Source of the DNA: Oscillospiraceae bacterium
GTDB lineage: Bacteria > Bacillota > Clostridia > Oscillospirales > Ruminococcaceae
DNA length: 64,000 nt
NCBI GenBank assembly: GCA_015067025.1
Contig: SVNC01000002.1
Coordinates: forward strand, 124,001-188,000
Reading direction: 5' to 3'
Shown piece after piece: positions 6,715 through 8,982 of the stretch. Below the pieces are notes generated by a model that worked only from the letters and a program-made list of their open reading frames with translations, made no database searches and had not been told where the DNA came from. Position numbers and translations under genes: made by a program. The number at the start of each line of letters is the position of its first letter. The stretch's first letter is position 1.

Positions 6715-7230
6715 ATGATAGACGCAGTTATCGGCTGGAATGAAAAAAATATAAAAGAATATGTAAAATACGTTATTATAGAAAAAAATAAAGGCACAAA
6801 AACAGGGCTTACTATTTACTCTGTTCTTATGGCTGTTATAGCAGCTGCCGCACTCGTTGCCGCTTTTGTGACAGGTATGATGTGGTTACTTATAGCTACA
6901 ATCTGTGCAGCATTAATGATTGGTATCTTTCTTCTCGTACTCTGGTATGCAATAAACAGATACACAAGGGATATTTTTGAAATCAATGACGGCAGTACAA
7001 TAAATGGCATTGAGATAACATCAACTGCTCTTTGCGTAAAAAAAGACGATATCGCCAAAGGGCTTATAAGCTGGGAAAATGTCACTGAAATAGATTTTAA
7101 TAAAGACAATGCATATATTTCAACGGCAGAAGGATATCTCATCATTATAGAAAAGGCAAATATTAAAGAAGGTTCCCTTGACGAACTTAAAAAAATAGTT
7201 GAAGAAAAGCTGGTGAAACAAGGTGATTAA
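6715..7230 (+). CDS. YcxB-like two-TM membrane protein
   Basis: 171 aa. Two transmembrane helices at about residues 31-52 and 55-80, flanked by a short cytoplasmic N-terminus and a C-terminal beta-rich domain (ISWENVTEIDFNKDNAYIST...GYLIII), the arrangement seen in YcxB-like proteins. The start ATG is one base after the tex stop and the end overlaps queH by 8 bases, so translation is coupled. No catalytic motif; function unknown. Confidence 0.65.
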   Translation: MIDAVIGWNEKNIKEYVKYVIIEKNKGTKTGLTIYSVLMAVIAAAALVAAFVTGMMWLLIATICAALMIGIFLLVLWYAINRYTRDIFEINDGSTINGIEITSTALCVKKDDIAKGLISWENVTEIDFNKDNAYISTAEGYLIIIEKANIKEGSLDELKKIVEEKLVKQGD

Positions 7231-7849
7231 TTATCAACTTGAAACCGACAAGATAATTAAAAGCCTTGATTATACGCCCACTCTTTTTCTTCATGCTTGC
7301 TGTGCTCCTTGCAGTAGCTATGTTCTCGAATATCTGTCTGAGTATTTTGATATCACGGTTTTCTTTTATAATCCCAATATTACTGAATATGATGAATATC
7401 TTAAAAGGAAAAATGAACTTATTAGATTTATAAAAGAGAAAGGCTTTAAAAATCCTGTAAAAATGATCGATGGGGACTTTTCTCCCGATGTGTTTTTTGA
7501 AATGTCGAAGGGTCGAGAAGAGCTTCAGGAGGGCGGAGCAAGATGTTTCGACTGTTATCTGTTAAGACTTGAAAAAACCGCTTTGCTTGCAAAGGAAAAC
7601 GACTTTGATTATTTTTGTACTACGCTTTCTGTAAGCCCTTATAAAAATTCACAGAAATTAAATGAAATTGGTGGACATCTGAGTGAAAAATATGATGTAA
7701 AATATCTTTTTTCTGACTTTAAGAAACGTAACGGATACAAGCGCTCAATCGAACTTTCAGCAGAATTTAATCTTTATAGACAGAATTACTGTGGATGTGT
7801 TTACAGTAAAGCACACGCGGAAAAGAGAGAAACGAAAGAAAATAAGTAA
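7223..7849 (+). CDS. queH: Epoxyqueuosine reductase QueH
   Basis: 208 aa, the normal size of the QueH (formerly DUF208) family, which makes queuosine from epoxyqueuosine in tRNA independently of the QueG enzyme. All cysteine motifs are present: HACCAPC (C26, C27, C30), RCFDCY (about 107-111) and YCGC (about 188-191), which bind the Fe-S cluster and adjacent metal. GTG is taken as start; it overlaps the previous gene by 8 bases. No other queuosine gene is in the window, so queuine/preQ1 salvage or synthesis must be encoded elsewhere. Confidence 0.9.
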   Translation: MINYQLETDKIIKSLDYTPTLFLHACCAPCSSYVLEYLSEYFDITVFFYNPNITEYDEYLKRKNELIRFIKEKGFKNPVKMIDGDFSPDVFFEMSKGREELQEGGARCFDCYLLRLEKTALLAKENDFDYFCTTLSVSPYKNSQKLNEIGGHLSEKYDVKYLFSDFKKRNGYKRSIELSAEFNLYRQNYCGCVYSKAHAEKRETKENK

Positions 7850-7865
7850 AATTTTACTGAAAGTA

Positions 7866-7898
7866 CACAAAAAGTGTTGTAAAGCAACGCATTTTGTG
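7866..7898 (+). other. Inverted repeat at end of queH, overlapping the corA promoter
   Basis: CACAAAAAGTGTTG / CAACGCATTTTGTG with a 5-base loop, 13 of 14 positions paired, 16 bases past the queH stop. The T-run is poor, so it may be a weak terminator; its 3' arm and loop contain the -35 and spacer of the corA promoter. Confidence 0.5.
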
Positions 7899-7905
7899 CT
7901 AAAAT
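7877..7905 (+). promoter_or_regulatory. Sigma-A promoter of corA
   Basis: TTGTAA, 17-bp spacer ending in an extended TGC, then TAAAAT. Predicted start near 7912, leaving an untranslated leader of about 135 bases. Confidence 0.65.
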
Positions 7906-7945
7906 ATTAAAGGCTTAATTTAGCTAATATTTTTTATGAGGTGAT

Positions 7946-8043
7946 AGACAATGACTGCGGACCCTTGTGGGAAAAGTTTAAAATTTGAATAACTGTGCAG
8001 AAATTGTCTTTAGGCGTAAGACTCTTTCTGCATAGAGAAAGAG
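7946..8043 (+). promoter_or_regulatory. corA leader RNA with mutually exclusive hairpins (candidate translational switch)
   Basis: Three helices compete. A: AGACAAT-GA-CTGC (7946-7958) pairs with GCAG-AA-ATTGTCT (7997-8009) and encloses the start of a 13-codon uORF. B: GCAGAAA (7997-8003) pairs with TTTCTGC (8025-8031), and inside it GTCTT (8006-8010) pairs with AAGAC (8018-8022). C: CTCTTTC (8022-8028) pairs with GAAAGAG (8037-8043), covering part of the corA ribosome site. B excludes both A and C. There is no T-run, so control would be at translation. It does not match the M-box consensus. Confidence 0.6.
7951..7992 (+). CDS. Leader peptide uORF MTADPCGKSLKFE upstream of corA
   Basis: A 13-codon frame with a strong ribosome site (GAGGTG ending 7 bases before ATG) and a TAA stop, wholly within the corA leader and 57 bases before the corA start. 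The peptide carries Asp4-Pro5 early, as does the Salmonella MgtL leader (acidic/proline codons sense Mg2+ through ribosome destabilisation). Its codons lie inside competing RNA helices, so ribosome position would decide which helix forms. Expression is inferred, not shown. Confidence 0.6.
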   Translation: MTADPCGKSLKFE

Positions 8044-8049
8044 GTGTTT

Positions 8050-8982
8050 ATGCTCAAGTTTTACAAAACCGTAAATAATAATATTGTTGAAATAGAAGAA
8101 GCAGAGGCTGGGTGCTGGATCTCTGCCGTTTCTCCTACAGAAACTGAAATTTCAACGTTACAGAACGATTTTAACATTGAACGAGATTTTATCCGTTCTG
8201 CACTCGACGAAGAAGAAAGCTCGCGTATTGAAAGCGATGATGGTCGTACACTTATAGTCCTTGACTACCCTGTTGCAGAAAAAACATCAGATGAAGATGA
8301 TGTTATCAGCTATTCTACAATGCCTATGAGTATTATTCTTACAGAGAGTAACGTTATAACTGTATCCTTAAAAGAAAATTCAATAATCGACGATTTTTCA
8401 AAGGGTGTTGTAAAGGGGATACAGACTCAGTACAAGACACGTTTTATATTCAGTCTTCTTTTACGCATTGCAGGTAAATATCTGCAGTACTTAAAACAAA
8501 TAGACAAGCTGTCAGGGTATGTTGAAGCTCAGCTTCAGAAATCGATGAAGAATAAGGAGCTTATTCAGCTTTTAGGTCTTGAAAAATCTCTCGTTTATTT
8601 TTCTACATCCCTAAAATCTACAGAAAGTGTACTTGAAAAGATACTCCGTGGTCGAGTTATCAAGCTTTACGAAGAAGATCAGGAACTACTTGAAGACGTA
8701 CTTATTGAAGTAAAGCAGGCGATAGAGATGAGCAGTATCTATTCAAATATCCTTTCCGGTACAAGAGACGCTTTTGCGAGCGTTATCTCAAACAATATGA
8801 ATATAGTAATGAAGGTCCTCACAGTCCTCACAATTATCATGGAAGTTCCGACTGTTGTATTCAGCTTCTATGGTATGAATGTCGGACTGCCATTGCCTTA
8901 TGCGTGGTTCCCTATAGCGTTAGCGGCAGTGCTTGCGGTTATAGTTGCCATAATAATTACAAAAACAAAATTCTTCAGGTGA
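8050..8982 (+). CDS. corA: CorA-family magnesium/cobalt transporter
   Basis: 310 aa from the ATG at 8050, preferred over an in-frame GTG at 8044 because GAGGTG then sits at proper spacing. CorA proteins are pentameric channels for divalent cations. The large N-terminal cytoplasmic alpha/beta domain is followed by the long stalk helix and two C-terminal transmembrane helices; the selectivity motif YGMN at the end of TM1 is intact (SFYGMNVGLPLPY), and a basic tail KTKFFR closes the protein. The promoter and a structured leader with a uORF are upstream, implying regulation, presumably by Mg2+ supply. Confidence 0.93.
   Translation: MLKFYKTVNNNIVEIEEAEAGCWISAVSPTETEISTLQNDFNIERDFIRSALDEEESSRIESDDGRTLIVLDYPVAEKTSDEDDVISYSTMPMSIILTESNVITVSLKENSIIDDFSKGVVKGIQTQYKTRFIFSLLLRIAGKYLQYLKQIDKLSGYVEAQLQKSMKNKELIQLLGLEKSLVYFSTSLKSTESVLEKILRGRVIKLYEEDQELLEDVLIEVKQAIEMSSIYSNILSGTRDAFASVISNNMNIVMKVLTVLTIIMEVPTVVFSFYGMNVGLPLPYAWFPIALAAVLAVIVAIIITKTKFFR

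Follow-up and report, generated by a model that had tools for sequence, protein, structure and literature searches.

To our knowledge, the sensing of Mg2+ through ribosome failure on a nascent chain has been described from a handful of enterobacterial leaders. The MgtL leader peptide of E. coli (MEPDPTPLP...) carries Asp4-Pro5 according to PMC8934632, and its EPDP is characterised in PMC11282234 as a Mg2+-dependent destabilising motif and a site of ribosome drop-off at low Mg2+; the motifs presented in PMC11282234 hold at least two acidic residues, the minimum being DPEE in one construct. As portrayed in these two reports and in PMC11552253, the mgtL leader of mgtA in E. coli and Salmonella has its uORF start in a stem, scarce Mg2+ switches the transporter on through poor elongation, and the regulated step is Rho-dependent transcription termination. 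The Salmonella mgtQ ORF, located between mgtC and mgtB, is described in PMC8092293 as having eight codons with early acidic residues and stem-loops 1:2 and 3:4 that alternate with 2:3; stem-loop 3:4 hides the SD of the Mg2+ transporter gene, control is translational, and a failing ribosome turns the gene on. In E. coli and Salmonella, corA itself is preceded by a uORF, corL, with alternative folds, and the translation of corL and that of corA are reported to be inversely related (PMC11552253).

Two structured RNAs are also relevant here. The corA motif RNA precedes corA and has been proposed to sense divalent metals, but its 325 reported examples come from gamma-proteobacteria and metagenomes only (PMC6429828); it was compared with our leader by means of the Rfam scan described below. 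The M-box (ykoK, RF00380) controls Mg2+ transport from leaders in Firmicutes, but it gave no match in our window or in any of the 40 genus genomes searched, while the same search was positive in B. subtilis and L. lactis. An M-box that acts on a uORF, as reported from mycobacteria (PMC12810186), is a different arrangement.

We analysed a window of 64,000 nucleotides from an Oscillospiraceae bacterium, in which the leader of a corA gene holds the following features (numbered from the first letter of the window).

7223-7849: queH (PF02677), the next gene 5′ of the corA leader
7877-7905, forward strand: promoter-like TTGTAA-17-TAAAAT, its second hexamer preceded by TG, 5′ of the leader
7938-7943, forward strand: SD of the uORF, GAGGTG, by direct reading
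7944-7959, forward strand: 5′ arm of helix A by folding (spacer of the uORF SD, start codon, codons 2-3)
7951-7992, forward strand: uORF of 13 codons, MTADPCGKSLKFE, with ATG at 7951 and stop codon TAA at 7990-7992
7960-7965, forward strand: Asp4-Pro5 codons within MTADPCGKSLKFE
7962-7971, forward strand: small hairpin CCC-NNNN-GGG within the uORF (7962-7964 with 7969-7971)
7996-8010, forward strand: 3′ arm of helix A by folding, overlapping the 5′ arm of helix B (seg1)
7993-8010, forward strand: 5′ side of helix B by folding (seg1 and inner strand)
8018-8035, forward strand: 3′ side of helix B by folding, overlapping the 5′ arm of helix C (seg2)
8022-8029, forward strand: 5′ arm of helix C by folding (anti-SD, seg2)
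8036-8043, forward strand: 3′ arm of helix C by folding, overlapping the corA SD
8040-8044, forward strand: corA SD, AGAGG, by direct reading, with the corA start ATG at 8050
8050-8982, forward strand: corA, encoding a CorA-type Mg2+ channel of 310 residues (PF01544, E 4e-57)

The CorA protein of the window also matches TIGR00383, with a score that falls under the curated cut-off of that model. Its translation contains YGMN, GMN being a CorA signature. The promoter-like site shares 9 of 12 consensus positions in a scan in which shuffled sequences held a mean of 0.6 such sites, and a similar TTGTCA..TGTGnTAAAAT was seen by eye in many relatives. Rfam models found no match above the gathering threshold in the window, and a permissive search of positions 7840-8100 gave a best E value of 0.3. 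Helix C (8022-8043) was flagged as terminator-like; it holds only three G-C pairs, and its tail, GTGTTTATGC, contains the corA start.

The original prediction for this leader was a short uORF with a GAGGTG ribosome site of its own, embedded in three helices of which one excludes the other two. Direct reading confirmed the uORF and its ribosome site, and folding of the leader bore out the placement of the helices. Helix A (13 pairs, 7944-7959 with 7996-8010) covers the uORF start, and helix C (8 pairs, 8022-8029 with 8036-8043) overlaps the corA SD. Helix B appears once the 5′ part of the leader is removed (7993-8003 with 8025-8035, and an inner 5 bp at 8006-8010 with 8018-8022); because some of its bases also belong to A and others to C, it is incompatible with each of them, as had been supposed. 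The predicted fold beats its shuffles with a z value of -2.12, and 6 of 200 shuffles were equally good.

The corA leader shows three features of the mgtL/mgtQ kind, in which failing uORF elongation at low Mg2+ raises the gene: an SD-bearing short ORF before a Mg2+ transport gene, early acid and Pro codons, and, in the predicted folds, mutually exclusive structures one of which hides an SD. By analogy, the best reading is that it would work like Salmonella mgtQ and mgtL, in another phylum. In its arrangement the leader resembles mgtQ; mgtQ is enterobacterial, lies within an operon before mgtB and uses Asp2 and Glu5, its Pro codon not being required in the account of PMC8092293, whereas the clostridial uORF occupies the 5′ leader of corA and carries Asp4-Pro5. 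With mgtL, compared by the position of Asp4-Pro5 in the peptide only, the clostridial uORF shares these two residues at the same positions, but MgtL has Glu2 and several prolines, and the clostridial leader appears to act on the corA SD instead of on Rho-dependent termination. The corL leader is set apart by its description in PMC11552253: a UUG start in E. coli, a single Pro and Rho dependence. Among the top matches in the open-access literature (subscription papers and preprints being outside its scope), we found no clostridial corA uORF, and for terms on corA and magnesium the main texts of PMC8632094, PMC11109978 and PMC8040213 yielded only the Thioalkalivibrio mgtE motif (PMC11109978) as related.

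Because conservation in relatives was one point on which the original prediction could fail, we collected the regions upstream of CorA homologues. In the genus, 48 of 71 genomes gave a CorA match, and 46 upstream regions were used after two weak partial matches (G040, G041) had been dropped. A uORF of the M/V-x-x-D type was present in 45 of these leaders: in 38 the Asp-Pro pair occupies exactly residues 4-5, in L022 and L025 it is displaced by an additional codon (MTTADP), and L010 and L012-L015 keep Asp4 with Gly or Glu at residue 5. The leader without the uORF, L046, stands before a CorA of 60% identity whose gene is divided between two contigs. Visual inspection showed the end of queH upstream of the leader in some clades of the genus but not in others, so the conservation of the uORF is not simply that of a kept gene order.

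Beyond the genus, CorA homologues were found in 176 of 347 genomes of the family, 60 of 197 of the order, 85 of 245 of the class and 70 of 249 of the phylum. We took 109 leaders from the 176 matching family genomes, mostly in order of score with some skipped, and the best-scoring 24, 25 and 28 new loci of the 60, 85 and 70 matching genomes of the order, class and phylum, which include several loci already in the sample; the resulting 232 leaders became 229 after the removal of identical ones. A uniform test (an SD of at least 4 matching bases, a start 30-230 nt before corA, an acid at residue 4 and Pro at residue 5) found the D/E4-P5 uORF in 152 of the 229 leaders, namely in 38 of 46 at the rank of genus, 78 of 108 at family, 32 of 47 at order and class, and 4 of 28 at phylum. 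The same test was positive in 0.3-1% of dinucleotide shuffles and in 3 of 229 reverse complements, and when the acid-Pro pair was sought elsewhere between residues 2 and 14, each position gave 0 to 8 leaders. All 152 uORFs have an SD because an SD was part of the counting criterion. Among the 77 leaders that fail the test, some keep an acidic variant, and in others no uORF of this kind was seen. When the SD rule was relaxed, D/E4-P5 was found in 55 of 79 named loci with enough upstream DNA, many of which are identical or closely related to loci of the main sample; named carriers include Anaerotruncus colihominis, Marasmitruncus massiliensis, Anaeromassilibacillus senegalensis and Caproiciproducens galactitolivorans. 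The range of the Asp-Pro uORF with its three hairpins across clostridia is unexpectedly broad and wider than first noted.

Within the 152 positives, the acid at residue 4 is nearly always Asp (149, with Glu in the other 3), and the start codon is ATG in 100, GTG in 44 and TTG in 8. Of the M-x-A-D-P pattern that had been anticipated, Asp4-Pro5 proved near-invariant, but residue 3 is variable (Pro in 58, Ala in 48). The commonest residue among positions 2-3 and 6-9 is Gly7 (77 of 152); Asp2 occurs additionally in 11 uORFs and Glu2 in 1, most having a single acid among their first five residues. Counted to their true stops, including those inside corA, the uORFs are 9-51 residues long (median 24), their C-terminal parts look unrelated between species, and their stops are scattered between 143 nt upstream of corA and 83 nt within it.

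Several phylum-level leaders (L228, L235, L237, L238, L240, L241, L242) show more acidic uORF starts (MDGDPG, MDSDPG, MDTDGS, MDSDGD, MDDPEA, MDGDPS, MDDPRL), and the clostridial M-x-x-D-P form might therefore derive from a more acidic ancestor. In one family, four leaders with no Asp-Pro uORF (L195-L198) have a common stretch, GTCAAAAGCTACTC, about 50-110 nt before corA, which is perhaps another control element.

The uORF was also sought away from corA. The pattern GAGGTGN{2,8}RTGNNNNCNGACCC gave 36 matches in 197 family genomes, 29 of them directly before corA; of the remaining seven, six lie inside open frames of at least 95 residues and one precedes a CNNM/CorC gene. Because the reversed pattern gave 17 matches in the same search, the seven are, as a group, not above chance. 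L356 is a gene of the CNNM/CorC family (PF01595, PF03471), and among 30 family loci of this kind (L356/L358, L360-L387) a script with a loose SD rule found an acidic uORF upstream of 10, or of 9 when L378 is set aside, whose match is probably the N-terminus of the gene itself, against 0.8% of shuffles. These uORFs lie 127-223 nt upstream of the gene (for example MDADPWPD, MDDGDSNAP, MDDSDSSD and MEDSDNN, with more MDD and MED starts seen by eye). Some of them are followed, by eye, by an apparent intrinsic terminator. An Rfam scan of 17 CNNM/CorC leader loci gave no match.

We examined whether the peptide or the RNA is conserved. GAYCC stands at offset 9 from an SD-bearing ATG or GTG in 129 leaders, at offsets 7, 8 and 10 in none, and at the remaining offsets from 3 to 21 in 0-4, in and out of frame alike, so that whole-codon shifts of the motif rest on single leaders (MTTADP, MGDP, MSDP, MDDP). 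Eleven leaders keep the acid at residue 4 without Pro5 (MSADG, MSADE, MSEDG, MADDV, MDTDG, MDSDG), a list from which background hits in the same scan were set aside by judgement. The wobble bases at Ala3 and Pro5 use all four letters. The Asp4 codon is GAC in 143 of 149 uORFs, against 900 of 1680 Asp codons in 102 CorA genes; GGG encodes Gly7 in 67 of 77 uORFs and CGA encodes Arg8 in 38 of 45, although in these 102 genes GGG accounts for 162 of 1139 Gly codons and CGA for 47 of 1025 Arg codons, each being the rarest for its amino acid. In the window, codons 7-8 (7969-7974) are GGG AAA, and GGGCGAAAACG is near-fixed in the leaders of the R-K clade. Because GAC, GGG and CGA are more constrained than the peptide requires, part of the conservation lies at the level of RNA or codons, and judged by the sequences it is both peptide and RNA/codon that are conserved. 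The GAC pairs inside helix A or in the CCC/GGG hairpin, and slow codons or an RNA contact are possible reasons for the preference for GGG-CGA.

The helices were then compared in 10 close relatives. Pairs in which both partners have changed number 4 in helix A, 6 in helix B and 2 in helix C, and the paired cells amount to 92%, 76% and 80%, respectively; the CCC/GGG hairpin is paired in 100% of its cells but varies little and therefore has no support from covariation. When the partners were slid by 1-3 columns, pairing dropped to 44-58% for A, C and the hairpin together (89% unslid) and to 37-54% for B (76% unslid), in a test that favours the unslid structures because they were derived from one of the aligned rows. 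When the 3′ letters were shuffled, the number of double-changed pairs was reached in 9 of 500 shuffles for A, C and the hairpin together and in 46 of 500 for B, and the covariation score in 0 of 500 and 6 of 500, respectively. The number of pair types did not exceed that of letter shuffles in these relatives, for A, C and the hairpin or for B. The arrangement of A and C against B is thus kept with some compensatory change, and the original prediction, which had staked itself on the presence of uORF and helices in relatives, survived.

For the wider sample, the statistics use D/E4-P5 positives only (139 or 138 leaders, mostly with the uORF 70-165 nt before corA); these leaders are kin, and neither the shuffle counts nor the Mann-Whitney p value come from independent trials. 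The script confined the 5′ arm of helix A to -14..+12, its 3′ arm to positions from +24 and seg1 to positions from +18, so the order of the arms is true by construction, which does not hold for the energies or the fraction of shared arms. By duplex energies, p<0.05 against shuffles was reached by A in 76 of 139 leaders, by B in 65 of 138 and by C in 54 of 139, and 111 of 138 leaders had a summed pairing of A, B and C that ranked within the top 5% of their shuffles. The median energies of A, B and C were -21.4, -15.2 and -11.1 kcal/mol, compared with -15.0, -7.5 and -8.4 kcal/mol in shuffles. The arms of A and B overlap by 3 nt or more in 117 of 138 leaders (85%), compared with 38% in shuffles. 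Counted from the uORF start, seg1 lies at about +44 to +58 and seg2 at about +72 to +84, with the stop at a median of +75. Helix B is stronger than C in 106 of 138 leaders, C is statistically the weakest of the three, and the leaders of the order and class give weak results for both B (8 of 22) and C (4 of 22). The sequences of the helices vary widely between leaders while the layout persists, also outside the genus.

An initial test by MFE folding of leaders masked in their 5′ part had let helix B take over in L001 and several near relatives, and helix C persisted in many other leaders; this weaker outcome still holds, and the question was re-asked by the duplex energies against shuffles and by the ribosome-position models. 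A MAFFT alignment of the R-K clade misaligns seg1 by eye and was excluded from the pair counts. In L010, L012 and L013, about 60-80 extra nt were seen by eye between the arms of helix C, both arms being intact. A sequence-only model, R1, matched 18 of 347 family genomes (7 in the genus and 11 outside); of the 11 matches outside the genus 6 lay before corA and 5 elsewhere, and the model was dropped in favour of the search upstream of CorA homologues.

To relate ribosome position to the corA SD, we used a model that holds the ribosome footprint unpaired and then computes the probability that the SD is unpaired. In the window leader, this exposure is 0.14 when no ribosome is present. A P site within codons 1-7 raises it to 0.76-0.91 (0.87 for codon 4 as for codon 5), and a P site at codon 8 or later brings it to 0.11-0.12, positions beyond the 13 codons of the uORF being hypothetical. 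In 60 leaders drawn at random from 116 eligible ones, the modelled mean exposure was 0.349 without a ribosome, 0.473 at codon 4, 0.459 at codon 5, 0.380 at codon 8, 0.349 at codon 12 and 0.333 at codon 15, and shuffles were flat at 0.487-0.512. Exposure rose at codon 5 in 50 of the 60 leaders, compared with 55% of shuffles. This ribosome scan gave a Mann-Whitney p of 1.8e-4, for leaders that are related and trials that are not independent. Over 139 leaders, the modelled mean gain was +0.093, compared with -0.021 in shuffles; only 17 of the 139 gained more than 0.3, and L002, L026, L033 and L079 showed no gain or a loss. The modelled equilibrium switch is thus strong in the window leader and modest on average (+0.09 to +0.11). 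Because the average "on" state is about as open as shuffled leaders, the special feature would be the closed "off" state, which selection seems to have added.

Overall, we consider it probable that this leader is a translational attenuator that couples corA to the failure of ribosomes on an Asp4-Pro5 leader peptide and most probably gauges cytosolic Mg2+. Its predicted anatomy is that of a trp-type attenuator transferred to the SD, with A and C together and B as the alternatives. The uORF would be loaded with a ribosome during transcription. With ample Mg2+, the ribosome would elongate beyond Asp4-Pro5 and disrupt or pass seg1, A would reform behind it, C would form, and corA would be off; at low Mg2+, the ribosome would be destabilised or slowed around Asp4-Pro5, keeping A open and seg1 free, B would form to the exclusion of C, and corA would be on. 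The original prediction that a stall at Asp4-Pro5 leads to helix B and opens corA fits the model, its direction of control being one we infer, as is Mg2+ as the signal. Its counterpart, that a ribosome at the stop codon closes corA, agrees with the low exposure modelled from codon 8 but does not generalise as to the stop codon: seg1, the shared arm, is followed by the uORF stop in 111 of 138 leaders and preceded by it in 21, so the general rule would be a ribosome past seg1 and not one parked at the stop. Mg2+ is suggested by the CorA channel gene, by the Asp4-Pro5 of MgtL with its EPDP, by the mgtQ precedent, by the lack of M-box matches in 40 genus genomes and by acidic uORFs before a second Mg2+ transport family; against it stands the single acid of most uORFs, the published motifs having at least two (Glu2 and Asp4 in MgtL). 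The modest average switch, the codon-level constraint on GAC, GGG and CGA and the 77 leaders that fail the D/E4-P5 test also weigh against the attenuator.

A compact form in Anaeromassilibacillus, Caproiciproducens and others, in which the uORF crosses the corA start out of frame, would give control of the same sign, completion of the uORF blocking corA and abortion freeing it. Among the 152 uORFs, 7 run 26-83 nt into corA, all 7 out of frame with it; in the named loci L306, L307, L309 and L318, the uORF starts 58-61 nt before corA and overlaps it out of frame. A compact VKPDPL uORF was seen in L169, L170, L171, L306, L307, L309 and L318, starting 58-70 nt before corA and extending 26-56 nt into it out of frame.

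Four other explanations were weighed against this attenuator. In a metal- or metabolite-binding riboswitch, the frame would be incidental and GACCC...GGGCGA would be conserved as RNA, and the nucleotide conservation of GAC, GGG and CGA beyond the needs of the peptide speaks for such an aptamer. The GAC is, however, explicable by its pairing in helix A or the CCC/GGG hairpin, Pro5 is replaced in leaders that keep the acid at residue 4, and the helices differ widely in sequence, with no conserved core outside the uORF by eye. Because the motif shifts by whole codons near the start, the wobble bases at Ala3 and Pro5 are free and no Rfam model matches above threshold, we rejected a riboswitch as the main explanation and hold it to be highly improbable. 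That the peptide is a small protein regulating CorA in trans would agree with its conserved N-terminus and good SD; near-invariance is limited to residues 4-5, however, and with lengths of 9 to 51 residues and unrelated C-terminal parts such a role is exceedingly improbable.

Translational coupling, in which complete translation of the uORF would open helix C and turn corA on, draws support from the many stops 12-40 nt before corA (in L009 only 3 nt), where a terminating ribosome would cover or melt helix C. In the window, however, the SD is modelled as closed with the ribosome at codon 8 or later, by a model that allows refolding and is silent on re-initiation; the stops are not tied to the corA SD, and in the 7 uORFs that cross the corA start out of frame completion should block initiation. 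A conserved Asp4-Pro5 would, moreover, then lower an importer at low Mg2+, and we give coupling a slim chance. A classical starvation attenuator sensing the charging of Pro- or Asp-tRNA would use the one Pro and one Asp codon at which a stalled ribosome favours helix B, and Salmonella mgtP is said in PMC8092293 to respond to charged tRNA-Pro. Here, however, the codons are single and locked at positions 4-5, variants with Glu4-Pro5 or with Asp4 and no Pro occur, and the downstream gene encodes a Mg2+ channel and not a biosynthetic enzyme, which leaves starvation sensing a slimmer chance still.

The attenuator reading suggests that these clostridia gauge Mg2+ by a ribosome stumbling on an Asp-Pro leader peptide. 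We regard as evenly balanced the broader proposition that Asp4-Pro5 ribosome destabilisation is a widespread clostridial Mg2+ sensor replacing the M-box, with an acid-Pro rule at residues 4-5 in fast-evolving corA switches and an M-D-D-x-D rule before CNNM/CorC genes, either independent of enterobacterial mgtL or anciently shared with it. If true, ribosome destabilisation would be a general principle of metal sensing beyond enterobacteria. The 152 natural variants separate the residues that matter, Asp4 first and Pro5 second, from those that do not, and the leader offers a candidate Mg2+ sensor for clostridia of a genus in which no M-box was detected.
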